From Methanocellales archaeon (lineage in GTDB: Archaea > Halobacteriota > UBA148 > JAUWXC01), in contig JASEEY010000012.1 in assembly GCA_030018435.1 (NCBI GenBank), forward strand, positions 1-38,124: a stretch of 38,124 bases of DNA, in the 5' to 3' direction. Position numbers and translations under genes: made by a program. This document shows positions 99-32,846 of this stretch, in pieces. Each line of letters opens with the position of its first letter. Position 1 is the first letter of the stretch. The notes beneath the pieces were generated by a model that was not told the origin of the DNA, searched no databases, and was given only the letters and a program-made list of their open reading frames with translations.

Positions 99-3000
99 AT
101 GAAAAAGAAAGGGGCTGTGCTGGTCATTGGCGGCGGGATAGCAGGAATACAGGCCTCGCTGGACCTTGCCGACCAGAATTTCAAGGTCTATCTTGTCGAA
201 AGAACCCCCAGCATCGGGGGGCACATGGCTCAATTGGATAAGACTCTCCCCACCAACGACTGCTCCATATGCATAGAAGCCCCCAAGATGATTGAAGTGG
301 CAAGACACTCGAATATCGAACTGTTATCCTATTCAGAGGTCGTTAGTGTCAGGGGATCAGTGGGCAATTTCAAGGTAAGGGTATTGAAGAAGCCAAGATA
401 TGTAGATGAGGAAAAATGCAACGGCTGTGGTGAGTGCGTTGCGGCGTGCCCATACATCAAACATCTGCAGGAGTTTGAAGTGGGGCTCAAGCTGAGGGGG
501 AACATATATATTCCATTTCCACAAGCGTCCCCTTTAGTCTACACCATAGACAGAGAGCATTGTTTTGCCTGTGGAAACTGTAAAGTGATCTGCGAATCCG
601 GTGCAATCGATTTGTATCAGAAACCAGAGGAAATCGAGCTCGAGGTAGGAACTATCATAATAGCGACAGGATACAGTGAATTGGTGCCAGAGAAAGGCGT
701 GTATGGTTACGGTGTTTACAAAAACGTCATCACAGCTCTGCAGTACGAAAGGCTCATGAACGCAGCAGGACCTACTGGAGGACATATCGTTCGCCCCTCC
801 GATGGTAAGGAGCCCAAGAAGGTTGCATGGATACAATGTGTGGGCTCCAGGACGAAGGAGCGACCTTACTGTTCAAGGGTTTGTTGCATGTACGCGACAA
901 AAGAGGCGATAATAACAAAGGAGCACACGCCTGACATTGAAACGTACATCTTCTACATGGACATGAGAGCCTATGGGAAGGGGTTTGAGGAATATTACAG
1001 AAGGGCAGAAGAGCGAATCGGCGTAAAATACATCAGGGGCAGACCGAGTAAAGTATCTGAAAATCCAGAAACAGGCGATCTGACAATTAGGTACGAAAAT
1101 CTTGACACCGGAGAAGTCAGGGAATTAGAAGTGAATATGCTGGTCCTTGCCTCCGCGGGCGTGCCTACTGATACGAACAAGGAACTTGCAAAGATGCTGG
1201 GGGTTAAACTCGATAAAAATGGCTTTTTCCAGGAGAAGGAGCTGCTACTGGCACCAATAGAGACCGATGTGGAAGGAATATACATTGCCGGGTGCGCGCA
1301 GGGACCAAAAGACATTCCGGACTCTGTAACCCAAGCCTCTGGAGCTGCTGCAAAAGCCATAATACCCATCGTGGAGACCAGGGGCGAGGAGATCGAAGAG
1401 GTAGAACTGCCAGAGGAAAAAGAGGTTAAACCCACAGATGAACCTAGAATTGGTGTCTTCGTCTGCAGGTGTGGCGTCAATATCGGAAGGATCGTTGATG
1501 TCCCCACTGTTGCGGAATATGCGAAAACGCTCCCAAATGTCGTCTTTGTAAACGAGGATATATTCACGTGTTCTGATGACTGTCGGGGCAGAATCAAAGC
1601 AGCAATCGAAAAATATGACCTCAACAGGGTCGTAGTCGCTGCATGTACTCCCAGGACGCATGAAGGGTTATTCAGAGATACATGCAGAGAAGTTGGATTA
1701 AACCCATATTTGTTCGAGTTTGTGAATATCAGGGACCAATGCTCGTGGGTGCACATGAACGAGCCGGAAGAGGCAACGGAAAAAGCTAAGGATCTGCTCA
1801 GGATGGGAGTCGCAAGGGCACGGCTCCTTGAACCCGAAGAGGAGGGTGAGCTTTCCGTCGGACCCGATTGCCTGGTGATAGGCGGAGGAATTGCCGGAAT
1901 GACAGCTGCCCTTGAGCTGGCAAATATGGGATTTAAGATAAAACTGGTCGAACGTGAGCAGGAATTGGGAGGAATGCTGCGGAACCTATACAAACTTTTC
2001 CCGACCGATGCTCCTGCAGAGGAGGTCATCGCTCCAAAAATAAGGGCGGTGCATGAACATAAAAACATTGAAGTCTATACAGGAGTCGAAATCAAGGGTA
2101 TAAAGGGATATATCGGAAACTTCGAGGTGATAATCTCTAAGAAGGACTCGGAGGAGGTGTTTAATGTTTCGACAGTCATCGTAGCGACTGGTTCGCAGGA
2201 GATAGATGCCACTGGTTATTACGGCTACGGTGAATACGATAATGTGATCACTCAGCTCCAGCTCGAGCGCATGTTAAAAGAAGGCGCATTAAAGGAGCTG
2301 AAAAATGTCGTGATAATCAATTGCGTCGGTGCCAGAGAGGAGGGAGGAAGGACCTACTGCTGCAGATTCGGCTGCGGCGTGTCGATCAAGAATGCAAAAT
2401 ACATCAAGGAGAGGTATCCAGATGCAAACGTCTTCATTCTACACAGGGATGTCAGGACTGTTGGGAAAAGAGGAGAGGAATACTACAATGATGTCAGAGC
2501 TAAAGATGTTAAATTCATCAGGTTCTCCAAGGATAAGAAACCACTTGTTTTTGAGGAGGGTGGAAAACTGATTGTCAAGGTGTACGATAGCATGCTCAGA
2601 ACAGATATCGAAATCGAACCGGACCTCGTTGTACTGACGACGGCGACAGAGGGGGCAAAAGGCGCAGGAGCGCTAAAGAAAATGCTCAAAGTCCCGATTG
2701 AAGTGGGCAATTTCTTCCACGAAGCACACGTCAAACTGAGACCACTGGACTTCGCAACCGATGGCATATATCTCTGCGGCTGCGCTCATTCGCCAAAGGG
2801 AGTAGTGGACACGATAACCCAGGCCGTTGGCGCAGCGTCCAGGGCATCGATTCCAATGGGAGTGGGCATGGTCAAGAGCGAAGGTATCACTGCTGTCATC
2901 AACCCTGAAGCGTGTGTGAACTGCGGAATTTGTATGACCATGTGTCCGTATGGGGCCATCAGAACGGTGGATAGAGCCACAGAGGTGATAACAGCCGTAT

Positions 3001-3119
3001 GCAAGGGATGTGGTACCTGCGTAGCCGCTTGTCCGACCGGCGCTCTGGAGCAGAGACATTATCAGAACAAGCAGATCACATCCCAGATAAAGAACGTGTG
3101 CAGGCTGGTGGTGGAGTGA
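99..3119 (+). CDS. hdrA: double heterodisulfide reductase subunit A (two HdrA flavin modules fused)
   Basis: This is the FAD and iron-sulfur subunit of heterodisulfide reductase, the site of flavin-based electron bifurcation in HdrABC complexes. It has 1006 aa against about 650 for a normal HdrA. The first half (about 1-425) starts directly at the FAD fold (GGGIAG at 11-16), keeps the DCSIC motif (54-58) and the inserted ferredoxin ([12 protein letters not shown] at 107-118, [11 protein letters not shown] at 155-165), but has no HdrA N-terminal domain. The second half starts with that domain (CRCGVNIG at 456-463; Cys 491, 495, 516, 529, 548), has a second FAD fold (GGGIAG at 595-600), lacks DCSIC and the inserted ferredoxin, and ends with two [4Fe-4S] motifs (939-949, 968-978). 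Shine-Dalgarno-like GGAG (84-87) and GAGGA (94-98) precede the ATG. It heads a run of overlapping genes. The family call is firm; bifurcation is inferred. Confidence 0.96.
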
Positions 3120-3535
3120 AGGGATTTGTCCCAAAAATCGTGGCATTTTGCTGTAACTGGTGTTCCTACGCCGGAGCGGACATGGCTGGCGTTTCAAGAA
3201 TGCAGTATCCCCCAAATATACGGATCATCAAGGTCATGTGCTCTGGTCGTATAGACCCCATATTCGTACTAATGAGCTTTATGGAAGGTGCGGATGGTGT
3301 TCTGGTCACGGGTTGTCACATCGGAGACTGTCATTATATCAATGGAAATTACAAAACCCAGAACAGGTTCGAGGTTTTGAGCGAGATGATGAACGAACTT
3401 GGACTGGAGAAGGAGAGGCTTAGATTGGAATGGATCTCGGCTACAGAAGGTGAAAAGTTCGCCAACATGGTCAAAGAAACGGTTGAGCAAGTGAAGAAAC
3501 TCGGACCGAGTCCATTGAAGCCGGTGATAGAATGA
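3116..3535 (+). CDS. mvhD: MvhD-type [2Fe-2S] electron-transfer subunit
   Basis: This 139-aa protein matches MvhD/VhuD, the small [2Fe-2S] protein that carries electrons from a hydrogenase, formate dehydrogenase or F420 module into HdrA. Visible ligand candidates are Cys 12, 13 and 16 (FCCNWC), Cys 42, and Cys 67/72 (TGCHIGDCH). I chose the GTG at 3116, which overlaps the hdrA stop in a GTGA, because homology begins there; a longer frame open from 2999 would run inside hdrA and has no family similarity. No hydrogenase large or small subunit is nearby, so the partner is probably the F420-binding protein encoded next. Confidence 0.93.
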
Positions 3536-4704
3536 ATAAAAGCACTGGAAAATGCTACCTGGCGTGGGCAACCGATGAGAAAACAAGAGAAAGGGGTAGC
3601 TCAGGTGGATTCGTTTCCGCTGCATTGGCAGCTGCTCTTGATAAGGGGATTGTCGAGCGCGTGCTGGTGCTGAAAAAACATGGCGTTTTCAAAGGGACGC
3701 CCACGGTAACAAGTGATCCGAAGGAGGTCCTCGACTCTGCAGGAGCCCTTCATATGACGGCAATCAATCTGGCCAAATACGTCGACTCAGATGTGCGAAT
3801 CGCCCTTCCTGCAAAGCCATGCGATGCCAGGGGGGCCATAGAGCGGGCTAAAAGAAACCAGGTCAACCTGGATAATGTCTACATGGTAGGTCTAAACTGT
3901 GCCGGCACCATGCATCCTGTGAAGGCACGTAAGATGGTCAAAGAAATCTATAACCTGGATCCCGACGCTGTCTTGAGCGAAGAAGTCTCGAAAGGCAAAT
4001 TGATCATAAAAACCAGCGAGGGTGAAAAAAGCATCAAGATAGATGAGCTGGAGAGGCAGGGGTATGGCAGAAGGGATGCCTGCAAATACTGCAGTATAAA
4101 CATTCCAAAAATGACGGATTTGGCTTGCGGAAACTGGGGCGTCCCACATGACAGGAAGGCTACATTCGTGGAGGTGCTGACCGAGAAGGGAGAGGAGATA
4201 TTCAAAAACGCCGTTGACGCTGGCTACGTGGAGTGCGAACCCGCTTCTGACAAGAGCATAGAGACTAGGGAGAAAATAGATCAAGCCATGAAGAAGCTTG
4301 CTCATGAGTGGCACGAAAAGTTGTTTGAACCCATAAACAAACTGTCCGACTCGGAGAGACTGGAGTACTATATCAATGCCTTTGCCAGTTGCACCGGTTG
4401 CGGTGCATGCAAAAAGGTCTGCCCCCCCTGTCCATGTGGAGAGGATGCAAAGTGCACGATGACGGAATTTCAGAGCGAAGCGCACCGAATACATATGTTC
4501 AATATGGTAAGATTGCTCCATCTGATGGACTCCTGTATCGGGTGTGGTAGGTGCGAAGATGTGTGCCCCGCAAGCATTCCCCTGACCATGATTCATATGC
4601 GCTTTACAGAGAGAATACAGAAAAAACTGGACCATATTCCAGGAATCGATATGAAAAAGCCGCCCCTTTTCGAGACCGAACTGAGAGAGGTGCAAAATGA
4701 CTGA
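3532..4704 (+). CDS. FrhB/FdhB-like F420-binding iron-sulfur flavoprotein
   Basis: This 390-aa protein belongs to the FrhB/FdhB/FpoF family, which moves hydride between coenzyme F420 and FAD and passes electrons to iron-sulfur clusters. The N-terminal F420/FAD domain carries SSGG (23-26), PAKPCDARG (93-101), [10 protein letters not shown] (120-129) and a CGNWG stretch (199-203). The C-terminus has two ferredoxin motifs, [11 protein letters not shown] (287-297) with extra Cys at 300, 302 and 308, and [11 protein letters not shown] (335-345). This layout resembles FdhB, but no FdhA (formate-oxidising subunit) and no FrhA/FrhG (hydrogenase) is present. The start overlaps the mvhD stop (ATGA). 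Its place between mvhD and hdrC suggests it is the F420 input/output module of this Hdr complex. Confidence 0.93.
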
Positions 4705-5278
4705 AGCGATAAGGCTGACAGATACCGATCCCAGATTTGTGGATGAGATAAAAAAGGCGGGTGGCGAGAACATTCTCATGTGTTACCAGTGCGGAACATG
4801 CACATCGAGCTGCCCTGTGAGAGAGATTGACGAGCGGTATGATCCACTCAAGATCATACGAATGGCAGTCCTTGGTATGAAGAAAGAAGTACTATCCAGC
4901 GACATCATCTGGCTTTGTTCCAGGTGCTATGCATGTTATGAGCACTGTCCACAAAGCGTGGGGGTGACAGAAGTGCTACATGCCATAACAAATATAGCAG
5001 AGAAGGAGGGCAAAGAGGGCAATATAAGGATAAAAAGTCTGAAGCCGCGTCTTGACGGCGTCTTCAACGACCTGATAAGAAAATATGGCAGACTTTTTGA
5101 GATAAAATTTTTTGCACACCATGCGCTCCTGAGCAAAGGCGTAGTTGGATTGCTATCCAGCGCACCTGATGGATTTGTCATGTTTAGAAAGGGGAAACTC
5201 AGATTGTTACCGCACAAGATTAAGGGTATGAAACAGATAGAGCGAATATTCAAGATTGTCGGGGCGAATGAAAAATGA
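4697..5278 (+). CDS. hdrC: heterodisulfide reductase subunit C
   Basis: HdrC is the two-cluster ferredoxin subunit linking HdrA to the catalytic HdrB. The 193-aa protein has two classical [4Fe-4S] motifs, CYQCGTCTSSCP (29-40) and CSRCYACYEHCP (74-85), in the spacing usual for soluble HdrC. It overlaps the preceding gene by 8 bp and hdrB by 4 bp, so translation is probably coupled; GAGGTG lies just before the ATG. There is no membrane segment, so this is a cytoplasmic HdrABC-type enzyme rather than HdrDE. Confidence 0.96.
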   Translation: MTEAIRLTDTDPRFVDEIKKAGGENILMCYQCGTCTSSCPVREIDERYDPLKIIRMAVLGMKKEVLSSDIIWLCSRCYACYEHCPQSVGVTEVLHAITNIAEKEGKEGNIRIKSLKPRLDGVFNDLIRKYGRLFEIKFFAHHALLSKGVVGLLSSAPDGFVMFRKGKLRLLPHKIKGMKQIERIFKIVGANEK

Positions 5279-6135
5279 AGTTCGCATATTACCCTGGTTG
5301 CTATCTTCATGGAACCGCTCTGGAGTACGATATGTCCACGAGGGCGGTTTGCAGAAAATTAGGCATAGAGCTGATCGAGTTGGACGACTGGAATTGCTGC
5401 GGCGCTGTAGAAGCGAACAACTCTCTATCCATCCCATTATCGGCAAGGAATTTGGCGCTCGCTGAAAGGATGGGGCTTAATATAGTAGCCCCGTGCAGTG
5501 TTTGCTTCCACAAACTATCCAAAGCGAACAAAATGGTAAAAGGAGATGAGAAATTCAGAAAGAAGATAAACGAGATGATAGATGGACAATATCAAGGAGG
5601 AGTTGAGGTACGACATCTTTTGGATATTATCGTAAATGAGGTCGGTCTGGAGAGAGTATCGAAAGATGTGAAAGTCCCATTAGAAGGGGTGAAAGCGGTG
5701 CCATACTATGGATGTCTGATCGTCAGACCATCCGAGATCGCTAAATTCGATGATCCAGAGGATCCACAATCGCTGGACGATTTGATCAAGGCGACAGGTG
5801 CCGAGTGTCTGCCATATTCCCATAAAGTGAGCTGTTGCGGCGGTGGCCTGCTGGCAAACAAGGAGGATTTTGCGCTGGATATGGCGAAAAAAATCATAGA
5901 TAGCGCAAAAAGGGCGGGCTCAAACTGCATAGTCGTAACATGCCCGCTGTGCCATACCATGCTGGACTTTCAGCAGTCTAACATAGGGTCCAGATATGGT
6001 ATTACCATAGACCTGCCGGTCCTGTATTTTACCCAACTATTGGGTCTTGCGCTGGGATTGGGAGTAAAAGAACTTGGGTTGGACAAAAATATAGTGTCCC
6101 CGATGAAATTGTTAGAATCCATAGGTATAGGGTAA
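5275..6135 (+). CDS. hdrB: heterodisulfide reductase subunit B
   Basis: HdrB carries the non-cubane [4Fe-4S] clusters that reduce or form the CoM-S-S-CoB disulfide. The 286-aa sequence has both CCG domains: Cys 9, CCG 41-43 and CSVC 74-77 in the first, Cys 147, CCGGG 187-191 and CPLC 223-226 in the second. All expected cysteines are present, so the enzyme looks active. The start overlaps hdrC by 4 bp. In organisms without methyl-CoM chemistry, HdrB homologues may use other disulfides, so the substrate is not fixed by sequence alone. Confidence 0.96.
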   Translation: MKFAYYPGCYLHGTALEYDMSTRAVCRKLGIELIELDDWNCCGAVEANNSLSIPLSARNLALAERMGLNIVAPCSVCFHKLSKANKMVKGDEKFRKKINEMIDGQYQGGVEVRHLLDIIVNEVGLERVSKDVKVPLEGVKAVPYYGCLIVRPSEIAKFDDPEDPQSLDDLIKATGAECLPYSHKVSCCGGGLLANKEDFALDMAKKIIDSAKRAGSNCIVVTCPLCHTMLDFQQSNIGSRYGITIDLPVLYFTQLLGLALGLGVKELGLDKNIVSPMKLLESIGIG

Positions 6136-6144
6136 GGAATGTTC

Positions 6145-6525
6145 ATGAAAAAAATCGATGTAAAATTGATTACGGGAAGACTCGTCGAGCAGGGCATCCA
6201 TCTGGAAAATAAGATGTCAGACGAGTATCTCAAGGCAGCGGCAGTCTGCGAACTGAACGAGAGAGATATGGCAGGGCTGGGCATCAGAGATGGGGGTAAC
6301 GTTCGGGTGAAATCACGTTTTGGAGAAGTTGTCGTCCGTGCAAGGATTAACAATGATAATCCAGCGGGCATAGCGTTCATCCCGATGGGGGCATGGGCAA
6401 ATAGGGTGATAGATCCAGATACCGGCGGATGTGGGATGCCACACTACAAAGGAACAGATGCCGAGGTAAGCCTTTCATACGAATCCATACCAACGATAAA
6501 AGAATTGATGGAGGATGTTAAATGA
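6145..6525 (+). CDS. fwdD: formylmethanofuran dehydrogenase subunit D
   Basis: This 126-aa protein is the molybdopterin-dinucleotide-binding subunit D of formylmethanofuran dehydrogenase. Together with FwdB it forms the Mo/W site that reduces CO2 to formate. It shows the family's beta-barrel pattern and a conserved PMGAWANRVIDP stretch followed by a GCGMP motif. Two in-frame ATGs exist; I chose 6145 over 6139 because AAGGA at 6134-6138 sits 6 nt before 6145 but touches 6139. It starts 9 bp after hdrB and overlaps fwdB by 4 bp, tying the Hdr genes directly to the Fwd genes. Confidence 0.94.
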   Translation: MKKIDVKLITGRLVEQGIHLENKMSDEYLKAAAVCELNERDMAGLGIRDGGNVRVKSRFGEVVVRARINNDNPAGIAFIPMGAWANRVIDPDTGGCGMPHYKGTDAEVSLSYESIPTIKELMEDVK

Positions 6526-7811
6526 TCATCACAGATGTGCTGTGCCCATTCTGCGGTGCTTTATGTGACGATATCGTCGTCGAAGTGGAGAAGAATAAGA
6601 TCATCGAGGTGAGAGAGGCATGTGAGATAGGTGTGAGCAAGATGATGGGGCACGAGAGAATTGCCACACCCATGATTCGAGAAAATGGCGAGCTGAAGGA
6701 AACTACATATGAGAATGCGATCGACAAGACGGCGGAGATTCTTGTAAACTCGCTTCGCCCATTAATATATGGCTGGAGTTCTACAACCTGTGAAGCACAC
6801 AGAAAAGGAATCGAACTTGCAGAGGAGTTAGGTGCGGTCATCGATAACACCGCTTCCGTGTGCCATGGTCCGTCCATTTTAGCCATCCAAAACGTCGGGC
6901 TACCATCCTGCACTCTCGGCCAAATAAAGAACAGAGCAGACTTGATCATATACTGGGGCTCCAATCAGGCAGAAGCGCACCCCAGACACATGAGCAGATA
7001 CACGAGCTTCCCGAGAGGATTTTTCAGCGAGGAAGGTAGAAGAGGGAAAAAGGTAGTAGTGCTCGATGTCAGAAAAACGACGACAGTTGAAGTAGCAGAC
7101 GACTTTATCCAAGTCGCTCCTGGAGAGGATTACCCTGTGCTGTCTGCGCTTAGAGCGATCCTGGCTGGAGAAGAGAATGTCGTGCCCTCTTGCGTGGGGG
7201 GCGTTTCAAAGGAAAAATTAATCGAGCTCGTGGAGAAGATGAAGAGTGCCAGATTCGGTATCCTCTTTTTTGGCTTGGGCTTAACGCACTCCAGGGGGAG
7301 ATACAACAACGTCGTCAATGCAATATCCCTGGTGAGAGAGCTCAACGCACATACGAAATTCGTGATAATGCCCATGAGGGGTCACTACAACGTCACCGGC
7401 TTTAATCAGGTGTGCACATGGGAGACGGGATTCCCGTTTGCAGTTGACTTCTCGCGGGGTCAGCCCTGGTACAATCCTGGTGAAACGTCTGCAGTGGATA
7501 TTCTGAACAGAGAAGAGTGCGATGCGGTCCTTGTAATTGCATCAGACCCAGGTGCACACTTCCCCAAGAAATCCATAGAATTCATGGCCAAGATTCCGGT
7601 GATACAGATAGACCCCTATCCGAATCCTACTACAGAATTGGCAGATGTCGTCATTCCATCTGCCATAGCTGGAATCGAGGTTGAGGGCACTGCATATAGG
7701 ATGGACAAAGTTCCGATAAGACTGAGGAAAATCATAGAGCCAAACCACTTGTCAGATGAGGAGATTTTGAGCAGGGTGCTGAACAAGGTCAGAGAGCGTA
7801 GGGGTGAATAA
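6522..7811 (+). CDS. fwdB: formylmethanofuran dehydrogenase subunit B (Mo/W catalytic subunit)
   Basis: FwdB binds the molybdopterin and one [4Fe-4S] cluster and reduces CO2 to formate. The 429-aa protein begins with the cluster motif CPFCGALCDD (8-17, with Cys 34) and carries the metal ligand as Cys 114 in SVCHGPS; some homologues have selenocysteine there. Molybdenum and tungsten forms cannot be told apart from sequence. A GGAGGA lies upstream of the ATG, which overlaps fwdD. Length and motifs look intact. Confidence 0.96.
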   Translation: MIITDVLCPFCGALCDDIVVEVEKNKIIEVREACEIGVSKMMGHERIATPMIRENGELKETTYENAIDKTAEILVNSLRPLIYGWSSTTCEAHRKGIELAEELGAVIDNTASVCHGPSILAIQNVGLPSCTLGQIKNRADLIIYWGSNQAEAHPRHMSRYTSFPRGFFSEEGRRGKKVVVLDVRKTTTVEVADDFIQVAPGEDYPVLSALRAILAGEENVVPSCVGGVSKEKLIELVEKMKSARFGILFFGLGLTHSRGRYNNVVNAISLVRELNAHTKFVIMPMRGHYNVTGFNQVCTWETGFPFAVDFSRGQPWYNPGETSAVDILNREECDAVLVIASDPGAHFPKKSIEFMAKIPVIQIDPYPNPTTELADVVIPSAIAGIEVEGTAYRMDKVPIRLRKIIEPNHLSDEEILSRVLNKVRERRGE

Positions 7812-7812
7812 C

Positions 7813-9489
7813 ATGGAGCTGTTGATCAAAAATGGCGTCGTATACGATCCCATCAACGAGATCCGCGGGGAAAAAATGGATATCTGCGTCAAGGAGGATA
7901 AAATAGTATCAAAGGTAAAAAATCCGAAGGTGATCGATGCCAATGGTAAGTTGGTAATGCCCGGGGGCGTTGACATACATTCGCATATAGCAGGCGGCAA
8001 GATAAATGCCGGGAGACTTCTCAGACCCGAGGATGGCAGGAAAGGAGCTGAACCCAGAGGCAAACTCACCAGGGTGTGTACAGGATATTCTGTGCCAAAC
8101 ACCTATGCAACTGGCTATAGATATGCGAAGATGGGATATACCTTCGTCATGGAGCCTGCTACCCCACCTCTACTGGCACGTCATACGCATGAGGAGCTAA
8201 TTGATACACCCATTTTGGATAACGCAATCCTCGCTTTGCTTGATAACAACTGGATGACCATGGAGTATGTTAAGTCTGGTGAAACAAAAAAGCTGGCTGC
8301 ATACGTTGCTTGGATGATAAAAGCCGTAAAGGCCTATGGTGTGAAAATAGTGAACCCCGGGGGAGATGAGGCATGGGGATGGGGGAAGAATGTAAACATA
8401 GACGATTCAGTACCCAATTTTGATGTCACGCCAAGGGATATCATCGATGGTCTTGCAGAGGCGAATGAGATGCTAAACCTACCTCATTCCATCCACATAC
8501 ACTGCAATGACCTCGGACATCCAGGGAACTATGAAACTACGCTGAAATCATTTGATGTGGTAAAGGGCAGATCGAATGCGAATCGTCAAGTCATGCATGC
8601 CACGCATGTCCAGTTCCACTCCTATGGTGGATCCGGCTGGAAGGACTTTGAATCGAAAGTTGATGAGATTGCCAAGTATGTAAATGCGAAGAAGCACGTG
8701 ACGATAGACATGGGTCAGGTGATGCTTGGGGATACGACGACGATGACAGCCGATGGTCCCCTTGAGTATGGACTGCATATGATAACGGGGAGGAAATGGA
8801 CGAACCTGGACGTGGAACTCGAGACAGGAGGTGGCATCACTCCATTTTTATATTCATCAAAAGTGGCTGTCAACACGATTCAATGGGCGATCGGACTAGA
8901 GCTGGCATTGCTCATAAAGGATCCATGGAAGATAGCACTAACGACAGACCACCCCAACGGTGCCCCATTTATTACATATCCGATCGTCATTTCGCTGCTG
9001 ATGAACAAGCAGAAGAGGGGGGAGGTCATGGCGAACGTTCACAAAGCCATCAATAAGAGAGCAATTCTACCGTCGATAGGGAGAGAGTTAGACTGGAATG
9101 ATATTGCAATAATGACAAGGGCTGCACCTGCAAGGATTCTCGGACTCGACAGATATGGAAAAGGTCATCTCGGTGTAGGTGCAGACGCAGACGTTGCGAT
9201 ATATGATGTTTCACCAGAAGAGAGAGAGAGCAAGAAAATCCAGTCCGCCCTCTTACATGCAAAGTACACGATAAAAGGCGGAGAGGTCGTCGTAAGGGAC
9301 GGAGAGATCGTTGCAGTTCCAGAGGGAAGGACATATTGGGTTAACCCGGAATTTGATGGAGAATCTACGAAGGACATGCTCGGTGACCTGACAGGGAAGT
9401 TTGAGAAGTACTACTCGGTGAACCTGGCGAACTATCCCGTGCAAGATGCGTATGTTCCGCATCCAGTCGAAATCAAAACAAAGGTGTAA
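7813..9489 (+). CDS. fwdA: formylmethanofuran dehydrogenase subunit A (amidohydrolase)
   Basis: FwdA is the binuclear-zinc amidohydrolase that condenses formate, delivered through an internal tunnel, with methanofuran. In the 558-aa product HSH (56-58) gives two metal-binding histidines, Lys 178 sits in the KIVNPGG context of the carboxylated lysine known from this family, and Asp 379 (TTDHPN) corresponds to the catalytic aspartate. A GTG at 7804 is also open, but ATG 7813 is preferred: the AGGGGTGA at 7800-7807 is well placed for it, and family members begin MELLIKNG. It starts 1 bp after fwdB. Confidence 0.96.
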   Translation: MELLIKNGVVYDPINEIRGEKMDICVKEDKIVSKVKNPKVIDANGKLVMPGGVDIHSHIAGGKINAGRLLRPEDGRKGAEPRGKLTRVCTGYSVPNTYATGYRYAKMGYTFVMEPATPPLLARHTHEELIDTPILDNAILALLDNNWMTMEYVKSGETKKLAAYVAWMIKAVKAYGVKIVNPGGDEAWGWGKNVNIDDSVPNFDVTPRDIIDGLAEANEMLNLPHSIHIHCNDLGHPGNYETTLKSFDVVKGRSNANRQVMHATHVQFHSYGGSGWKDFESKVDEIAKYVNAKKHVTIDMGQVMLGDTTTMTADGPLEYGLHMITGRKWTNLDVELETGGGITPFLYSSKVAVNTIQWAIGLELALLIKDPWKIALTTDHPNGAPFITYPIVISLLMNKQKRGEVMANVHKAINKRAILPSIGRELDWNDIAIMTRAAPARILGLDRYGKGHLGVGADADVAIYDVSPEERESKKIQSALLHAKYTIKGGEVVVRDGEIVAVPEGRTYWVNPEFDGESTKDMLGDLTGKFEKYYSVNLANYPVQDAYVPHPVEIKTKV

Positions 9490-9491
9490 AG

Positions 9492-10259
9492 ATGCGAGTT
9501 ACGCTAACCCCTAAAAAAGATTTCAAGGTGCCTGTAGAGGCGGAGACAATCAAACCAGATAACTTTGCTGGAAAGAACAAAAGCGAAATAGAATCGATTG
9601 CCCTCTGGCATGGAAATAAAGAGGTTAAGTTGGGCTCTCTTTTCGATGTCAAGGTTGAAGGGGTCAACAAGGAAGAAACGAAGATCGTAATCGAAGGCGA
9701 CGCATCCAGGATAAAGAGGATAGGAGAAGGAATGACTTCGGGTGAGATAATGATAAACGGCAACGTTGACATGCATTGCGGTGCCATGATGTCAGGTGGG
9801 AAGATAATTGTTAAAGGTGATTCGGATGCTTGGGCAGGTAGAGAGATGATAGGCGGCGAGTTAGTCGTAGAAGGTAACGCCGGCAACTATCTAGGAGCCG
9901 GGTACTGGGGAGCAGAAAAAGGCATGGGGGGTGGGATGATTAGGGTGCATGGGGATGCGGGGGATTATGTAGGTGGACATATGGGTGACGGAGAAATAAT
10001 CGTCAAGGGCAGTGCAGGTTTATTGCCAGGTTTGGACATGTCTGGAGGAAAAATAACGATTGAAGGCAATACAACACTACCAGGCGGTGAAATGAAGAAT
10101 GGCATGATGGTGATAAAGGGGAAGGTCCTGGAGATGTTGCCATCGTTTAGGTTTGAAGGAGAGGAAATAGTAGATTCCCTCAAGCTGAAGAAATTTACCG
10201 GCGATCTGGTCAGAAGGGGATCTGGCACACTTTACGTTAATCTCATACCAGGGGAATAA
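9492..10259 (+). CDS. fwdC: formylmethanofuran dehydrogenase subunit C
   Basis: FwdC is the structural beta-helix subunit of the Fwd core, related to the C-terminal domain of glutamate synthase. The 255-aa sequence shows the expected repeated Gly-rich strands (GGKIIVKGD, GGELVVEGN, GGMIRVHGD, GDGEIIVKG, GGKITIEGN) through residues 90-210. It follows fwdA by 2 bp and precedes mer by 2 bp. The electron-supplying subunits FwdF and FwdG are not encoded in this run. Confidence 0.95.
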   Translation: MRVTLTPKKDFKVPVEAETIKPDNFAGKNKSEIESIALWHGNKEVKLGSLFDVKVEGVNKEETKIVIEGDASRIKRIGEGMTSGEIMINGNVDMHCGAMMSGGKIIVKGDSDAWAGREMIGGELVVEGNAGNYLGAGYWGAEKGMGGGMIRVHGDAGDYVGGHMGDGEIIVKGSAGLLPGLDMSGGKITIEGNTTLPGGEMKNGMMVIKGKVLEMLPSFRFEGEEIVDSLKLKKFTGDLVRRGSGTLYVNLIPGE

Positions 10260-10261
10260 CG

Positions 10262-11245
10262 ATGAGTAGAAATGGTGACGTTGTGTTCGGCATAGAATTC
10301 GTCCCAGATATCCCAGTAGATGCGCTCGTATCACATTGCGTTTTAGCTGAAAACAATGGGTTCGATGCGATATGGATTACAGATCACTATAACAATCGGA
10401 GCGTCTATGCGACACTGGCCCTAGTTGCCAAAAGAACCAAGCAAGTGAAACTTGGACCCGGCGTGACCAACACATATCATATCCATCCTGCTCTAACAGC
10501 CTCTGCCATTGCCACAATCGATGAGATATCGAACGGAAGGGCCATGCTCGGCATTGGGGCCGGCGATGGGTCCACGTTGAGCTCGCTAGGCGTCCAGATA
10601 AACAAGCCCGTGGCAAGGTTGAAGGAGGCGGTAGAGATCATACGACGCCTCCTAAATGGAGATAGAATAACCTTCAATGGAAAATTCTTCGTTGTCAAGG
10701 ATGCAAAGCTGACGTTCAAACGTCCCAACATCCCGATATATATTGGAGCACAGGGTCCTGTGATGCTCAAGACGGCGGGGGCAATAGGCGATGGGGTTTT
10801 AATCAACGCCTCGCATCCCGCTGATTTCAAATACGCCATTCCAAAGGTCAAGGAAAGCGCTCCCAAGGACTTTGACATCGCCGCTTATGCCAGCTTCTCC
10901 GTTGACAAAAACGCAGAAGAGGCAAGGAAAGCCGCAAGACCGGCGGTTGCCTTCATAGCAGCTGGATCGCCGCCAGAGGTCTTAGAACGGCATAACATAA
11001 GCCCTGCAGATGTGGCGCCGGTCAAAAACGCACTTGCCAGAGGCGATTTTAGGGCGGCGTTTTCATCTGTCACAGACCAGATGATAGATGCATTTTCTAT
11101 CCACGGCACGCCGGACCATTGTATCCAGAGGGTAAAGAAATTGTTTGATCTGGGGGTTACGCAAGTGGTGGTGGGCTCCCCTATTGGTCCAGACGTGCCA
11201 ACCTCGATCAAGATCATTGGCGAGGAGATTATAGGAGGTATTTGA
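10262..11245 (+). CDS. mer: F420-dependent methylene-H4MPT reductase
   Basis: Mer interconverts methylene-H4MPT and methyl-H4MPT using F420H2/F420. The 327-aa protein is a bacterial-luciferase-like TIM barrel of normal Mer length with typical stretches WITDHYNNR (near residue 40), LGPGVTNTYHIHP and IGAGD (near 100), and a C-terminal HGTPD motif. It is distinct from MetF-type reductases. It lies directly behind fwdC and 2 bp before mtd, so its expression should follow the Hdr and Fwd genes. Its presence is useful for placing the organism. Confidence 0.94.
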   Translation: MSRNGDVVFGIEFVPDIPVDALVSHCVLAENNGFDAIWITDHYNNRSVYATLALVAKRTKQVKLGPGVTNTYHIHPALTASAIATIDEISNGRAMLGIGAGDGSTLSSLGVQINKPVARLKEAVEIIRRLLNGDRITFNGKFFVVKDAKLTFKRPNIPIYIGAQGPVMLKTAGAIGDGVLINASHPADFKYAIPKVKESAPKDFDIAAYASFSVDKNAEEARKAARPAVAFIAAGSPPEVLERHNISPADVAPVKNALARGDFRAAFSSVTDQMIDAFSIHGTPDHCIQRVKKLFDLGVTQVVVGSPIGPDVPTSIKIIGEEIIGGI

Positions 11246-11247
11246 TC

Positions 11248-12057
11248 ATGGTCAAAATAGGATTTGTAAAACTTGGAAATTTGGGAATTTCTCAGGTGGT
11301 CGATCTATTATTGGATGAAAGAGCGGACAGAGACGTTAGTATTCGGACAGTAAGTGCAGGAGCGAAGATGGGGCTCGACGAGATGGGCTGTGTTGAATGG
11401 TTGAGGACATGGAAACCTGACCTCACCGTCATGATAAGCCCGAACGCCTCGCTTCCTGGGCCTGCGAAGGCAAGAGAAAGTGTTGATAGACCGTGCATCA
11501 TCATCTCCGATGCACCTGCAAAGAACGCAGTCAACACGCTAAAAAAAGATGGCTTTGGGTACATCATCCTGCTCGGCGATCCACTGATAGGTGCACGCAG
11601 GGAATTTCTCGACCCGACGGAGATGGCGCTCTTTAACTCAGACGTTCTGCGCGTATTGACGATATGCGGTGCGGTGCGATTGGTTCAAGAGGAGCTGGAT
11701 GCAGTCATAGGGCAGATGCAGCAAGGCAAGGTAAGGCTGCCACAGATCATCGCAGATGCCTCTGTGGTGGTGGAAAGGGCAGGATTTTCAAATCCGTATG
11801 CGAAGGCGAAGGCATTGGCAGCATATCAAATGGCTGAAAAGGTGGCTGAGATAAATGCGAGAGCGTGCTTCGTTTTAAAGGAGGCTCGCGAATATATCAC
11901 GACTGCCGCGTCCGCACATGAGATGATGAGAGCTGCTGCACTGCTGGCTGATGAGGCTAGGGAAATCGAGAAAGCCAATGACAAAGTCTCGCGCGGACCC
12001 CATGCCAGCTCGGGACAAATTTTGAATAAGAGAGGTTTACTGGAGAAGCCAAGATGA
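11248..12057 (+). CDS. mtd: F420-dependent methylene-H4MPT dehydrogenase
   Basis: Mtd interconverts methenyl- and methylene-H4MPT with F420. The 269-aa protein begins MVKIGFVKLGNLG and keeps the family stretches SPNASLPGPAKARE and GDPLIGARREFLDP. A TTG at 11242 is also open, but ATG 11248 has AGGAGG (11233-11238) at a good distance, whereas 11242 would be only 3 nt from it. It starts 2 bp after mer. Both F420 steps of the C1 branch therefore sit in the same run as an F420-linked Hdr module. Confidence 0.96.
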   Translation: MVKIGFVKLGNLGISQVVDLLLDERADRDVSIRTVSAGAKMGLDEMGCVEWLRTWKPDLTVMISPNASLPGPAKARESVDRPCIIISDAPAKNAVNTLKKDGFGYIILLGDPLIGARREFLDPTEMALFNSDVLRVLTICGAVRLVQEELDAVIGQMQQGKVRLPQIIADASVVVERAGFSNPYAKAKALAAYQMAEKVAEINARACFVLKEAREYITTAASAHEMMRAAALLADEAREIEKANDKVSRGPHASSGQILNKRGLLEKPR

Positions 12058-12074
12058 AGGGCGAGGTGTGAAAA

Positions 12075-12962
12075 ATGCAAATAAACGGAGTGGAGATCGA
12101 TGATACGTTCGCAGAAGCCTTTGAAATGTACGCTGCAAGGGTTTTGATTACCGCCAAAAACGAAAAATGGGCATTAATCGCTGCAACCTCAATGACCGGA
12201 TTTGGCACGTCCATAATCATGTGTGAGTGCGAGGCGGGTGTCGAAAACGTCGTTTCGGCCAAAGAAACACCAGACAGCAGGCCAGGTGTGAACGTCTTGG
12301 TGTTTGCAGCGTCAAAAAGATGCCTGGAGGAGCAATTGATGAAAAGGATAGGACAGTGTGTGTTGACCGCGCCCACAACAGCCTGCTTTAACAATTTGAG
12401 CGGTGAGGAAAAGATCGGCGTTGGAGGCAAACTGAGATACTTCGGTGACGGATACGAGGTGAGCAAATCGATCGGAAACAGAAGAATGTGGGCGATCCCG
12501 GTTATGGAGGGGGAGTTCTTCGTCGAAGACGAATTTGAGATTTTGAAGGGAGTGGGCGGCGGCAACTTCATCATTTTGGGAAGTGATGCTGATTCAGTCC
12601 TGAGCGCCGCTGAAAAAGCAGTCGATGTGATAAAAAAGGTGAGAAATGTCATCGCACCCTTCCCGGGCGGCATCGTGAGGTGCGGGAGCAAAATCGGCTC
12701 AAAATACAAATTCCTGGATGCATCGACGAATGCTGCCTATTGTCCAACGTTAAAAACGATGGTCAGGAGCGAATTGCCAAAAGATGTCGGCGCCGCACTG
12801 GAGATCGTCATAGACGGCCTGGACATGGGAAGCGTGGGCAAGGCCATGAAAGAGGGGATAAGCGCCGCATGCACCGTGGAAGGAGTCGTAAAGATAACCG
12901 CCGAGAGTTTTGGCGGAAAACTGGGGAAGTACCAGATACACCTGCATAAGCTATGGCGCTGA
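12075..12962 (+). CDS. ftr: formylmethanofuran:H4MPT formyltransferase
   Basis: Ftr moves the formyl group between formylmethanofuran and H4MPT. The 295-aa protein has the normal Ftr length and conserved stretches MQINGVEIDDTFAEAFE, SMTGFGTS, ETPDSRPGVNV, RIGQCVLTAPT, VEGEFFVEDEF, APFPGGIV, ASTNAAYCPT and SFGGKLGKYQIHLH. It is the last gene of the twelve-gene run, 17 bp after mtd. The cyclohydrolase Mch, which acts between Ftr and Mtd, is not in the window. Confidence 0.95.
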   Translation: MQINGVEIDDTFAEAFEMYAARVLITAKNEKWALIAATSMTGFGTSIIMCECEAGVENVVSAKETPDSRPGVNVLVFAASKRCLEEQLMKRIGQCVLTAPTTACFNNLSGEEKIGVGGKLRYFGDGYEVSKSIGNRRMWAIPVMEGEFFVEDEFEILKGVGGGNFIILGSDADSVLSAAEKAVDVIKKVRNVIAPFPGGIVRCGSKIGSKYKFLDASTNAAYCPTLKTMVRSELPKDVGAALEIVIDGLDMGSVGKAMKEGISAACTVEGVVKITAESFGGKLGKYQIHLHKLWR

Positions 12963-13996: not shown

Positions 13997-13997
13997 C

Positions 13998-16480: not shown

Positions 16481-16521
16481 TTGAACAAGTTTCACTTTCG
16501 CCCTCCACTTAGGCAAGATTC

Positions 16522-16560: not shown

Positions 16561-16586
16561 TAGTTTAGATAGAAAATAACTAAGAG

Positions 16587-18391: not shown

Positions 18392-19576
18392 GTGAAAATT
18401 TTTGTCTTCGAGTATGCCAGTGCGGGTGGAGCGGACAAAACACACCTATTGACCGAAGGTTACGGAATGCTGAGAAGCGTTTGTGATAGTTTAAGCTCTG
18501 CTGGGCATGAAGTACATACGTTGCTTGATCCCAGGATAAGTAAGCTTGGCATTAAGCCGCCCGCAGATAAGGTCGAAATATGTTCTTCTCCTTGGGAGAT
18601 GGAGCGGGTCTTATCACATGTGGATGCCTGCGTTCCAATCGCGCCCGACAGCGTATTGTACGACATAACCAAGATGATCGAAGCAGAGACTTCCTTGATA
18701 GGGTGCTCCCCCAAGAGCGTCTCGTCTTGTTCAAACAAAAATGAGACATATGAACTCGTTTCCAATATGGCAAAACATTTTGATGTGCCAGAGTACGAGA
18801 GTCTTCCGTTGGATGTCGATGCCGTCATGGGATATTGTGATAAAATCGGATTCCCGGTTGTGATTAAACCAATTGATGGGGCGGGGTGTGATGGTATCAG
18901 TATGATAGGCTCTAATGAGAAGATACCGGATGCCATAAAAAAGGTGTCTGAGGCTTCCAAAGCGAGCGAACTTATAGTACAAAAATTTTGTGAGGGCAGA
19001 CACATGAGCTGTAGCATCATTTGCTCTAAATCTCATGTGCTTCCCGTTTCCATAAATTCCCAGCGAATCGAGATCGCTGAGAAGATACGCTATCTAGGTG
19101 GTGTCTCTCCACATCCCTCAGCACATAAAGAAGAAATATTTGAGGAATCAAGGAGGATCGCAAAAAAACTGCGATTATTTGGGTTTGTTGGGATTGATTT
19201 GGTGGTCTCAAGGGATAAGATATTTTTTATGGAGATAAATCCCAGAATTACCACCCCTTTCATAGCGCTCTCCGGCATAACGCAGCTCGGAGAGCTGTTG
19301 ATCGACTGTCTCGATGATAGCCTTCCATCTACCATAAATTTACGTGGGTTTGGCGCAGTTGCCATCCTCCCTTTGAAAAAGGGTTGCGCCCATATAGAAT
19401 ATAAAAAATTACAGCAGATTCCAAGGCTTATATCCCCTCCCTTTCCCATGGGCAATCGTTTTATTCAAGACGCGAGCAAGGTTCTCATCTCCGTCCACGA
19501 TCAAAGCTTATCTGGCATCGCAAATGAGATCGATGGCGTGAAAAAGAAGTTGTTGAAGGCGGGGATAACATGCTGA
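18392..19576 (+). CDS. mfnD: tyramine-glutamate ligase (ATP-grasp), methanofuran biosynthesis
   Basis: MfnD joins tyramine and glutamate in methanofuran synthesis. The 394-aa protein is an ATP-grasp enzyme: N-terminal pre-domain MKIFVFEYASAGG, ATP-binding segment GFPVVIKPIDGAGCDGI (about 151-167), LIVQKFCEG, and the metal-binding FMEINPRITTPF near residue 283. It starts with GTG and shows no Shine-Dalgarno, consistent with leaderless translation. It overlaps mfnF by 7 bp. Confidence 0.9.
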   Translation: MKIFVFEYASAGGADKTHLLTEGYGMLRSVCDSLSSAGHEVHTLLDPRISKLGIKPPADKVEICSSPWEMERVLSHVDACVPIAPDSVLYDITKMIEAETSLIGCSPKSVSSCSNKNETYELVSNMAKHFDVPEYESLPLDVDAVMGYCDKIGFPVVIKPIDGAGCDGISMIGSNEKIPDAIKKVSEASKASELIVQKFCEGRHMSCSIICSKSHVLPVSINSQRIEIAEKIRYLGGVSPHPSAHKEEIFEESRRIAKKLRLFGFVGIDLVVSRDKIFFMEINPRITTPFIALSGITQLGELLIDCLDDSLPSTINLRGFGAVAILPLKKGCAHIEYKKLQQIPRLISPPFPMGNRFIQDASKVLISVHDQSLSGIANEIDGVKKKLLKAGITC

Positions 19577-20625
19577 TCGTCGGTCTTGACATAGGTGGTG
19601 CCTACACGAAAATCGCCGTTCTCAGGGTTGATGAAGGGAATACGGAAATACTCAACATCAACTCAGATTACTTCCCCTTCTGGAAGTGCAAAGATCAATT
19701 CTCCCGGTACATCAGAGCACGTCTACCAGAGGGGGAGAAATTGATAGGAGTCACCATGACGGCTGAGCTAGCGGATTGTTTTTCCTCAAAAAGTGAGGGT
19801 GTAAAATATATCTTGGAGTCCCTTGACTCTATCGCCAGAACATTGGTCCTGGACAGTTTCGCAAAATTCATCGATGTGGAAACGGCTCTTGCGCGTCCGC
19901 TAAGAGTTGCAGCCTCCAACTGGACTGCAGCACCGCTCCTCGTCTCGAAGTACATGCCCGATGCGCTCTTTATCGATGTCGGGAGCACGACGACGGACAT
20001 CGTTCCCGTACTAAGAGGAAGTATATCCGCCATGGGGAAAAACGATCTCGAAAGATTGATGCATGGGGAGTTGGTCTATACCGGTGCATTACGGACCAAT
20101 CTCGCCACCATAGCAGGATCCGTTCCAGTCAAAGGTAGACCGACATCCGTGTCATCAGAGTATTTTAGCATAGCCGCAGACACTCATCTAATCCTAAATC
20201 ACATCAGGCAGGAGGACTATTCTTGTGATACACCAGATGGGAAGGGGAAAACCAGAAAAGATGCATCAAGAAGGATGGCAAGGTTGGTCTGTGCAGACAT
20301 GAGCATGTTAGACGAGGGGGATATTCGATGCATCGCCAGCTATATACACAAAAAGCAGGTTGAACAGATACAAAGGGGTCTACTCGATGTGATCCAAAGG
20401 CAAAATATAGCAAGGAATACGCCCATTATACTCGCAGGCATAGGCGCGAGATTTTTGGGAAAAGACTCGGTGGAGCCGTTTTTCAATGACGTACGGTATT
20501 TTGAGGAGTTTGTTAAGGAGAGAACTGGTCTTTCTGCTGAGAAAATCTCGATGGCTGCTCCCGCTTTTAGCATAGCGTTAATCCTGGCACAGGAAGAAAT
20601 GGCGCTCGCAAGGGTGAAAAGATGA
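19570..20625 (+). CDS. mfnF: methanofuran biosynthesis condensing enzyme (ASKHA fold)
   Basis: MfnF joins the phosphorylated furan amine to gamma-glutamyl tyramine. The 351-aa protein has ASKHA phosphate-binding motifs GLDIGGAYTKIAVL (5-18) and FIDVGSTTTDIVPV (about 135-148), as in the H4MPT-linked C1 transfer pathway proteins also found in methylotrophic bacteria. It overlaps mfnD upstream (7 bp) and mfnB downstream (ATGA), indicating one operon. Confidence 0.9.
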   Translation: MLIVGLDIGGAYTKIAVLRVDEGNTEILNINSDYFPFWKCKDQFSRYIRARLPEGEKLIGVTMTAELADCFSSKSEGVKYILESLDSIARTLVLDSFAKFIDVETALARPLRVAASNWTAAPLLVSKYMPDALFIDVGSTTTDIVPVLRGSISAMGKNDLERLMHGELVYTGALRTNLATIAGSVPVKGRPTSVSSEYFSIAADTHLILNHIRQEDYSCDTPDGKGKTRKDASRRMARLVCADMSMLDEGDIRCIASYIHKKQVEQIQRGLLDVIQRQNIARNTPIILAGIGARFLGKDSVEPFFNDVRYFEEFVKERTGLSAEKISMAAPAFSIALILAQEEMALARVKR

Positions 20626-21341
20626 GATTGTTAATAAGCGTTGTCAGCCTGAGTGAGGCGATGGCAGCGCTGAAAGGCGGCGCGGACATAATCGATGTTA
20701 AGAACCCGAGAGAGGGGTCCCTGGGAGCAAACTTTCCGTGGGTGATAAGGGAGATCAGGCAAATCATTCCAGCGGGTGTTGAGCTGAGCTGCGCGCTGGG
20801 AGATGCCCCTCACCTGCCGGGCACGATCAGTTTAGCTGCCCTGGGCTGTGCCTCACTCGGCCCGGATTATATAAAGGTGGGGCTGCACGGGACCAGGAAC
20901 AAAGAAGAGGCGTTAGAGGTTATGGATGCCGTGATGAGAAGCGTTGAAGAAATAAACGACGAGATTAAAGTGATACCCTCTGGTTACTCCGATTTCAGAA
21001 GGATAGGTTGCCTTGACCCCATGTTGTTGCCGGAGGTGGCAGTAGAAACGGGATGTCATGGCGTGCTAGTGGATACGGGCATCAAGGATGGTAAAACGCT
21101 GTTTGATTTTATGAACACTGAAAAAATAAGGGATTTCACGGAAAGGGGACGTGAATTTGGGCTACTTGTGGCCCTGGCTGGGTCTCTTAAAGCCGGAGAC
21201 GTTGAGGTTCTGAGAAAGCTAAAACCCGACGTGATCGGAATTAGGGGAGCCGCTTGTGATAATTATGACAGAAAAACGGGCACGATCTCATCGAACAGGG
21301 TTATGGAATTAAAAGGTCGTATGTCTGAAAAGATTATATGA
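20622..21341 (+). CDS. mfnB: 4-(hydroxymethyl)-2-furancarboxaldehyde-phosphate synthase
   Basis: MfnB makes the furan ring precursor of methanofuran from glyceraldehyde 3-phosphate. The 239-aa TIM-barrel protein (DUF556) keeps the two key lysines of the studied methanogen enzyme at the same numbers, Lys 27 (ADIIDVKNP) and Lys 85 (DYIKVGLHG), plus Asp 25. It overlaps mfnF by 4 bp. Genes for the other steps (mfnA, mfnC, mfnE) are not in the window. Confidence 0.94.
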   Translation: MRLLISVVSLSEAMAALKGGADIIDVKNPREGSLGANFPWVIREIRQIIPAGVELSCALGDAPHLPGTISLAALGCASLGPDYIKVGLHGTRNKEEALEVMDAVMRSVEEINDEIKVIPSGYSDFRRIGCLDPMLLPEVAVETGCHGVLVDTGIKDGKTLFDFMNTEKIRDFTERGREFGLLVALAGSLKAGDVEVLRKLKPDVIGIRGAACDNYDRKTGTISSNRVMELKGRMSEKII

Positions 21342-21875: not shown

Positions 21876-21900
21876 GGAGTTCATGAACTCCATTTCTTTT
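21876..21900. terminator. palindrome between convergent ferredoxin and cdhE genes
   Basis: A perfect 16-bp palindrome, GGAGTTCATGAACTCC (21876-21891), is followed on the plus strand by ATTTCTTTT. It begins 3 bp after the ferredoxin stop and contains the cdhE stop codon. A third GAACTCC is repeated at about 21904. The position between converging operons suggests transcription termination for both strands. Confidence 0.45.
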
Positions 21901-23266: not shown

Positions 23267-23268
23267 CC

Positions 23269-26510: not shown

Positions 26511-26511
26511 A

Positions 26512-27033
26512 TCATTTCCTCCTCAGCAGTGAAATCAGATTCTCGAAATTCTTTTCCCACTCCTTTTCCTTGAGATTATCGAACGAGTAATCGGCATTTG
26601 GCTGATAGAATCTTCCCAAGCTCATGGTCTTTATATCTGAGAAGTGCTTCAGCACGGACAGCATCTGCGATTCCAGGTAATATGGAAATCCCAGATACGC
26701 CACCATGTCGTAATTTCCTTTACCGTCAAAACCCCTCCACTCAGCGTCCCTCAGCAGATTGGTGACCTCCACAACGCCCTTTGCCACCGGCTCAGCTCCC
26801 ATTTCCAGGAAATCTTTTAGCACAGATGGAGCTACGACAACTGACATTTCTTTGGATAGGTCCAGGATGTACTTTTGTATTGGTTCCTTCCCTATCTTTT
26901 GACCTTTTATCCCAGAGCCGCATAGCATCATTTTCCTCCCCACTTTGCTCAAAATCTTCGCCGCAATCTCTGGCGTCACCACTCTGGCTTGCTTCGGTCC
27001 TGGTATGTTCGCAGAAAACCACGGTATTGTCAT
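26512..27033 (-). CDS. cdhB: CODH/ACS epsilon subunit
   Basis: CdhB is the small Rossmann-like subunit bound to CdhA in archaeal CODH. The 173-aa product begins MTIPWFSANIPGPKQARVVTPE and contains AYLGFPYYLESQMLSVLKHF, typical of the family. It overlaps cdhA by 4 bp. Confidence 0.94.
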   Translation of the reverse strand: MTIPWFSANIPGPKQARVVTPEIAAKILSKVGRKMMLCGSGIKGQKIGKEPIQKYILDLSKEMSVVVAPSVLKDFLEMGAEPVAKGVVEVTNLLRDAEWRGFDGKGNYDMVAYLGFPYYLESQMLSVLKHFSDIKTMSLGRFYQPNADYSFDNLKEKEWEKNFENLISLLRRK

Positions 27034-32839: not shown

Positions 32840-32846
32840 TTTCCCC

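Follow-up and report, generated by a model that had tools for sequence, protein, structure and literature searches.

What might a heterodisulfide reductase (Hdr) do in an archaeon that seems to lack its usual substrate, and why should its genes be joined to those of formylmethanofuran dehydrogenase (Fwd)? The question is raised by a run of twelve genes on the + strand of contig JASEEY010000012.1 (Methanocellales archaeon, assembly GCA_030018435.1), positions 99–12962, in the order hdrA-mvhD-frhB/fdhB-type-hdrC-hdrB-fwdD-fwdB-fwdA-fwdC-mer-mtd-ftr. The window analyzed is the entire contig, 38,124 nt; hdrA begins 98 bp from its start, and the DNA upstream is outside view. The original prediction described gaps of 17 bp or less with many overlapping starts, and proposed a complex coupling F420, the heterodisulfide, and CO2/formylmethanofuran. 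The layout is exactly as described, with spacings from hdrA to ftr of −4, −4, −8, −4, +3, −4, −8, +2, +2, −4, and +17 bp. The mvhD start is most likely the GTG at 3116, judging from start context, the ATG at 2999 being merely the first start of that frame; mtd starts with a TTG at 11242; and ftr is followed by a 221 bp gap and an AbiEi-like gene. The reading preferred here, at a probability of roughly 55%, is that the run encodes a complex of Hdr and Fwd linked to F420. It would shuttle electrons between F420 and CO2/formylmethanofuran, and its HdrBC would act on a partner other than coenzyme M (CoM). Of the coupling first proposed, the F420 end and an Hdr-Fwd linkage that recurs across two families held up; the heterodisulfide end did not. 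A complex is favored because of the tight spacing, the gene orders in a congener and in a second family, the FwdB clade, the co-occurrence of FrhB and FwdB, the match to FdhB and ElpB, the bifurcation residues in both HdrA copies, the retained FwdB catalytic Cys, and the lack of McrA, ComA, and sulfopyruvate decarboxylase.

The run holds a complete HdrABC set and an MvhD/ElpC connector. Its HdrA is of type II, a tandem form that had been overlooked, with 1006 amino acids against roughly 650 for an ordinary HdrA; the HdrA of PDB 5odc aligns to it in three stretches. Copy 1 (about residues 5–430) has the inserted 2x[4Fe-4S] ferredoxin, the flavin-near cluster motif QCVGSR...C...CC, and equivalents of E356, K409, and Cys197 (in DCSIC). 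Copy 2 includes an N-terminal-type domain (447–585) and a C-terminal 2x[4Fe-4S] ferredoxin (939–978); it too retains the E and K bifurcation residues, with C403 replaced by G and no Cys197 equivalent. One chain amounts to one full set of HdrA-homodimer parts, a division to be anticipated in a covalent pseudo-dimer and in agreement with the HdrA heterodimer model proposed for anaerobic methane-oxidizing archaea (ANME; PMC9012536).

Coupling of this module to F420 is well supported by sequence comparison. The FrhB-like protein aligns almost end to end with two subunits of known structure, FdhB from the Fdh-Hdr-Fmd complex of M. hungatei (7bkb_E, E 3.7e-91) and the FdhB homolog in Elp-Hdr (8rvu_E, E 1.4e-85). 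Both are the subunits at which F420H2 feeds its complex (PMC12350162), and the same two chains rank first and second in a Foldseek search with its single-chain model (predicted local distance difference test score, pLDDT, 66, with a poor ferredoxin region and values below 50 from residue 284 to the C terminus). It is the sole PF04432 (FrhB_FdhB_C) protein in the host genome (G000), which agrees with the earlier view of F420 as the only evident external partner. Hydrogenase and FdhA catalytic subunits had been noted as missing, and this is true of the window. Elsewhere the genome holds a group 1 NiFe hydrogenase with a twin-arginine (Tat) export signal, a NuoD/FpoD-like group 4 NiFe complex, and a Tat-exported molybdopterin oxidoreductase; a hydrogenase or FdhA partner for Hdr was rejected, all candidates being Tat-exported or of group 4 type and none adjoining hdr.

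HdrB, the only CCG-domain protein in the genome, has two CCG motifs and every cluster Cys. Its loops are NCCGAVEA and CCGGG; in alignment it has neither the CCPAPGVFxSF nor the CCGAGGGxR loop found in HdrBs of 5odc, Methanosarcina, Methanolobus, and ANME-2. It scores 232 against a cut-off of 345 for TIGR03288 and groups with HdrBs of Methanoperedens and Ethanoperedens, which have NCCGAxEA-like and CCGGxL-like loops. By sequence it thus falls outside the canonical heterodisulfide-cleaving class.

The host (1.02 Mb in 29 contigs, about 95% complete) belongs to the order lacking methyl-CoM reductase (Mcr) that includes Ca. Serpentinarchaeum (Met12). Eleven genomes of this order were sampled; the named relatives are the "Methanocellales archaeon" metagenome-assembled genomes (MAGs) CSMAG_2674 and STD1_76 and "Methanocellaceae archaeon" UBA148. 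McrA, ComA, and sulfopyruvate decarboxylase (TIGR03845) are absent from 11/11; the McrA and sulfopyruvate decarboxylase controls were positive in both M. jannaschii and M. acetivorans, the ComA control in M. jannaschii and not M. acetivorans. Coupling to the heterodisulfide is thus not supported by gene content. It is correspondingly improbable that this is a classical Hdr reducing or forming CoM-S-S-CoB, with cofactors imported from methanogens or made by unknown genes. Such a role would suit the 57–60% identity of HdrB to that of Methanoperedens, with all cluster ligands kept, and Methanoperedens is an ANME using CoM and coenzyme B (CoB). It sits poorly with the missing genes, with the loops of solved heterodisulfide-cleaving HdrBs (CCPAPGVF, CCGAGGGxR) that are lacking here, and with Met12, which is reported to be without ComA-E, AksA-F, and CfbA-E, and more generally without Mcr, CoM/CoB/F430 synthesis, or any Hdr (PMC11176372).

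Short soluble MtrA and MtrH are present in the host, adjoining mch, a core-MetE methionine synthase, and methanogenesis marker 14 (the MtrH–MtrA pair near core MetE and marker 14 is at G000 C23:55450-57042). MtrH was considered and rejected as a sign of CoM metabolism; methyl transfer to methionine fits these proteins better because core MetE adjoins them. An MtrH homolog also occurs at C1:348810-349682 of G004, a single contig of 1,067,436 bp taken here to be Met12, which was reported to lack MtrABCDEGH.

Conservation of gene order had been put forward as a check, and the order does recur, beyond what chance would give. It is identical in a congener (G002, L128, a 10.9 kb contig), with 89–96% amino acid identity for full-length genes. 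In four genomes of a second family, f3 (G005, G007, G008, and G010, the last with a contig starting inside frhB), it is rearranged as hdrA-mvhD-frhB-fwdDBAC-hdrC-hdrB-ftr, the fwd genes lying inside the Hdr block. In the FwdB tree the proteins of these six Hdr-bearing genomes group together in a single clade (support 99/98, with long branches elsewhere), and within the order HdrB of the window class is restricted to genomes whose FwdB is 78–100% identical to that of the window. Exactly one FrhB_FdhB_C protein was found in each of the 9/9 FwdB-bearing genomes and none in the 2/2 Fwd-less ones; the latter are congeners of the host (G001, G003), with no FwdB, CCG protein, or FrhB. Met12, G006, and G009 have no HdrB, and their FwdBs are 51–53% identical to the window's. 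Among the 30 closest HdrB loci and the best-matching FwdB loci from 394 genomes of the phylum, a sample that leaves room for cases elsewhere, hdr or frhB is joined to fwd only in the six genomes of this order, and the same holds for 80 named FrhB-type loci. An mvhD-hdrABC-fwd cluster is known in Methanocella conradii (PMC12054007). Two of the f3 genomes, G008 (L130 3504-8070) and G005 (L131), have an extra hdrA-mvhD-HdrD-like module ahead of the hdrA-mvhD-frhB-fwd block, recalling the two tandem hdrA-mvhD pairs in Methanoperedens.

Within the Fwd module, FwdA, FwdB, and FwdC score above their curated TIGR cut-offs, and FwdD reaches 119 bits against the 175 of a tungsten-type model. FwdB retains the active-site Cys114 and the N-terminal cluster motif CPFCGALC in alignment with 8rja_B, its closest PDB match. 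What would join Fwd to Hdr is less evident. In M. hungatei the link to HdrA is made by FwdF, and in M. marburgensis by an MvhB-type connector. The run contains no FwdF and no MvhB-type candidate; no 8-cluster polyferredoxin was found in the host genome, where a Met12 FwdF query gave only partial ferredoxin matches. Small ferredoxins do occur there, so an FwdG is possible. One protein considered as a substitute for FwdF or MvhB, of 697 amino acids with an HdrA N-terminal domain and several ferredoxin motifs (G000 C24:1660-3753), was rejected: it lies beside a TorD-like chaperone and the Tat-exported molybdopterin oxidoreductase (cut at the contig end), and a homologous stretch is also present in G003, a genome lacking both Hdr and Fwd.

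Also missing is the non-catalytic Molybdop (FdhA-like/ElpA) gene. It follows frhB directly in nearly all type II loci outside the order with enough downstream DNA; it was not found in loci of the order, and tblastn of the stitched host genome at 1e-5 was empty. In f3, fwdD-fwdB directly follows frhB, the exact gene position of Molybdop elsewhere, and the Molybdop profile aligns to FwdB (probability 95.6, E 1.1e-8), with its C terminus matching FwdD weakly (probability 54). These observations allow a variant of the complex in which the FdhB-type subunit carries FwdB-FwdD where the dead Molybdop/ElpA would otherwise be bound. F420 would then be wired directly to the oxidation of formylmethanofuran or the reduction of CO2, and HdrA would form a side branch. 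The missing FwdF would find a parallel in Ethanoperedens, where an F420 reductase takes its place (8rja, PMC11493965). In the window, however, hdrCB separates frhB from fwdD; direct transfer from F420H2 to CO2 would be uphill unless formylmethanofuran is oxidized; and a single synteny substitution is suggestive only. This variant is accordingly rated unlikely, at about one half the weight given to the preferred complex or somewhat less. Slightly more doubtful still is the wider proposal that FwdB-FwdD replaced the dead FdhA-like subunit on the F420 arm to give a CoM/CoB-free three-way converter of F420, formylmethanofuran, and a disulfide. If true, a methanogen-derived, Mcr-less archaeon would be fixing CO2 or oxidizing acetate while bifurcating to a new high-potential partner.

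A plainer explanation is that HdrA-MvhD-FdhB is a ferredoxin:F420 oxidoreductase feeding Mtd and Mer, with Fwd merely co-transcribed and served by soluble ferredoxin, and HdrBC idle or separate. This role has been proposed for hdrA-mvhD-frhB of Mcr-less Korarchaeia with the Wood-Ljungdahl pathway (PMC10667645); the run has no connector polyferredoxin, the group 4 NiFe complex could provide reduced ferredoxin, and Met12 uses an FpoF-type F420 reductase instead. An idle HdrBC fails to explain why the cluster Cys of HdrC and HdrB are kept, or the linkage to fwd in both gene orders, and both HdrA copies retain both bifurcation residues. Overall this explanation is considered unlikely, on a par with the placement of FwdB-FwdD on the FdhB-type subunit.

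Several points do weigh against an Hdr-Fwd complex. Without FwdF, an MvhB-type connector, or an 8-cluster polyferredoxin, there is no recognized structural basis for contact between the two. Closely packed operons may unite the enzymes of a pathway without any complex, and the products of mer, mtd, and ftr, in the same run, are soluble. HdrBC has no known substrate in this lineage. The host is a MAG, and genes scored as absent may fall in its gaps, although the absences repeat over 11 genomes.

If the preferred complex does form, the run would comprise one C1-redox machine (FdhB-type subunit, MvhD, tandem HdrA, HdrCB, and FwdDBAC) together with the enzymes it serves, Mtd, Mer, and Ftr. Hydride would be exchanged between F420/F420H2 and the FAD of the FdhB-type subunit, and electrons would pass through the iron-sulfur clusters of that subunit to MvhD and on to the HdrA flavins. 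HdrA would join three ports: F420 at mid potential, CO2/formylmethanofuran at low potential via Fwd or ferredoxin, and HdrBC at high potential. In a lineage without Mcr and CoM, the partner at the last of these would not be Mcr-made CoM-S-S-CoB; it could be another disulfide/dithiol or redox partner. Fwd might dock via the inserted ferredoxin of HdrA, or on FrhB in the place of Molybdop. Since the FdhB-type subunit is the sole FrhB-family protein in the cell, the complex probably reduces F420 for Mtd and Mer in CO2 fixation, or re-oxidizes F420H2 if acetate is oxidized. The reductive direction would fit the proposal of Met12 as a CO2-reducing, electron-fuelled acetogen without bifurcation (PMC11176372). 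The oxidative direction would fit the acetate--CoA ligase beside the carbon monoxide dehydrogenase/acetyl-CoA synthase (CODH/ACS) genes and the many multiheme cytochromes of the host.

The nearest described system, which the original prediction also overlooked along with the missing FwdF and FdhA-like scaffold, is that of nickel-starved Methanothermobacter marburgensis, where hydride from F420H2 is accepted by ElpB (FdhB), HdrA receives the electrons by way of ElpC (MvhD), and Elp-Hdr joins Fwd/Fmd in bifurcating CO2 reduction (PMC12350162; 8rvu, 8rvv, 8rvy). Both have an FdhB homolog, an MvhD homolog, HdrABC, and Fwd, with no hydrogenase or active FdhA. The window differs in lacking ElpA, MvhB, and FwdF, in its tandem HdrA fusion and the other sequence class of its HdrB, in placing everything with mer-mtd-ftr in one run, and in a host without Mcr or CoM genes. 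By its gene content it has all electron-carrying parts of the Elp arm, yet without FdhA or ElpA, a polyferredoxin bridge, or CoM-S-S-CoB it would not be counted among Elp/Fdh-Hdr-Fwd systems.

Type II HdrA-MvhD-FdhB-Molybdop clusters of ANME, alkane oxidizers, and Methanolobus (PMC12054007, PMC9012536) share the tandem HdrA, MvhD, FdhB, and their order; close homologs of the FdhB subunit outside the order are about 50–60% identical. The window differs in having fwd genes and no Molybdop, and its genome has no mcrA; the published HdrA survey took only mcrA-bearing genomes (PMC12054007). Ca. Ethanoperedens also wires Fwd to F420 without FwdF (PMC11493965; PDB 8rja), but it does so without Hdr and through FwdI, another F420-reductase subtype whose ferredoxin domain is N-terminal, whereas the window reductase is of FdhB type with a C-terminal ferredoxin region. 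Within the order, the Fwd operon of Met12 (L235; FpoF-type frhB-fwdF-fwdDBAC-ftr-mch-mtd) likewise includes the genome's single FrhB-family protein; it has FwdF and no Hdr, and its FwdB is just 51% identical. Two separate arrangements thus join Fwd to a single F420 oxidoreductase in this order, one in Met12 and the other in the Hdr-bearing genomes. Korarchaeia provide another F420-Hdr module in Mcr-less archaea, in another phylum and with no linkage to fwd described in the portion of the report consulted (PMC10667645).

Each component has thus been described before: supercomplexes of F420-linked Hdr and Fwd, type II HdrA-FdhB clusters, Fwd wired to F420, and Hdr in the Mcr-less Korarchaeia (PMC10667645). 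The literature searched yielded no description of their combination in an Mcr-less and CoM-less order, with fwd in the scaffold position and without a connector. The electron-splitting machine of methanogens has apparently persisted here in rewired form, without the substrate it usually serves. This offers a natural test of the role of Hdr after loss of methane metabolism and CoM, points to a different HdrB partner, and suggests a minimal way of joining Hdr to Fwd that dispenses with FwdF, MvhB, and FdhA. Ca. Serpentinarchaeum has been described as lacking Hdr bifurcation; its sister lineages kept an F420-type Hdr tied to Fwd, and the idea of a bifurcation-free lifestyle would be limited to part of the order's members.

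The 32 kb that include the run also contain the other genes of the archaeal Wood-Ljungdahl pathway (Table 1), except for mch, on contig C23.

Table 1. Coordinates and supporting evidence for features of the window.
Feature	Position	Strand	Evidence
hdrA, type II (tandem), 1006 aa	99..3119	+	NF040770, 1114 bits over cut-off; 5odc_A alignment; motif positions
mvhD / elpC-like [2Fe-2S] connector	3116..3535	+	PF02662 FlpD, E 2.5e-57; GTG 3116 start inferred
F420 oxidoreductase, FdhB/ElpB type (frhB-like), 390 aa, C-terminal di-cluster ferredoxin region	3532..4704	+	PF04422/PF04432; 7bkb_E, 8rvu_E
hdrC, two [4Fe-4S] motifs	4697..5278	+	TIGR03290, E 2e-25, under that model's cut-off
hdrB, both CCG motifs intact, non-canonical NCCGA-loop class	5275..6135	+	Profile searches, motif alignment
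fwdD	6139..6525	+	NF042908, E 1.5e-34; PF01568
fwdB, catalytic subunit	6522..7811	+	TIGR03129, 635 bits over cut-off; 8rja_B alignment
fwdA, metallohydrolase subunit	7804..9489	+	TIGR03121, 826 bits over cut-off
fwdC	9492..10259	+	TIGR03122, 280 bits over cut-off
mer, F420-dependent methylene-tetrahydromethanopterin (H4MPT) reductase	10262..11245	+	TIGR03555, 444 bits over cut-off
mtd, F420-dependent methylene-H4MPT dehydrogenase	11242..12057	+	NF002162, 393 bits over cut-off
ftr	12075..12962	+	TIGR03119, 430 bits over cut-off
Methanofuran biosynthesis: MfnD-like ATP-grasp, MfnF-like, MfnB-like	18392..21341	+	
CODH/ACS block: cdhE, cdhD, CooC-like, cdhC, cdhB, cdhA, CooC-like	21881..30124	-	
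AMP-forming acetate--CoA ligase	30209..31930	-	NF003313, 893 bits over cut-off

The right-hand part of the window (31955–37331) is collinear with contig C1 of the Fwd-less congener G003 at 84.9% nucleotide identity, which puts an abrupt boundary of the Wood-Ljungdahl block immediately upstream of acs. No fwd, ftr, mer, or cdh was found in the first 800 kb of G003, and comparison of window positions 1–31950 with its C1 leaves either loss of the whole block or an island. Recent horizontal transfer between families was rejected: identities of the island to f3 (53–80%) overlap core-gene medians (48–68%), both from small samples, and vertical inheritance with loss is equally good because of this overlap. 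Between ftr and the methanofuran genes (13184–17013) are an AbiEi-like antitoxin, a DUF234/ATPase_2 gene, and a PemK/MazF-like toxin, and window DNA at 17020–17575 is found again in G003. A second, native-type mtd is split across contig ends in the host (G000 C23:98580-98948 and C10:2-427) and is 77–80% identical to the mtd of G003, compared with just 68.6% for the operon copy, which therefore represents a distinct lineage.

Multiheme cytochromes with up to 34 CxxCH motifs are encoded at G000 C25:66094-69987, C25:62597-63976, C26:15630-18982, and C2:38163-41736. Contig C26 carries a tandem pair of 16-heme proteins of 370 amino acids that look near-identical over the part compared.

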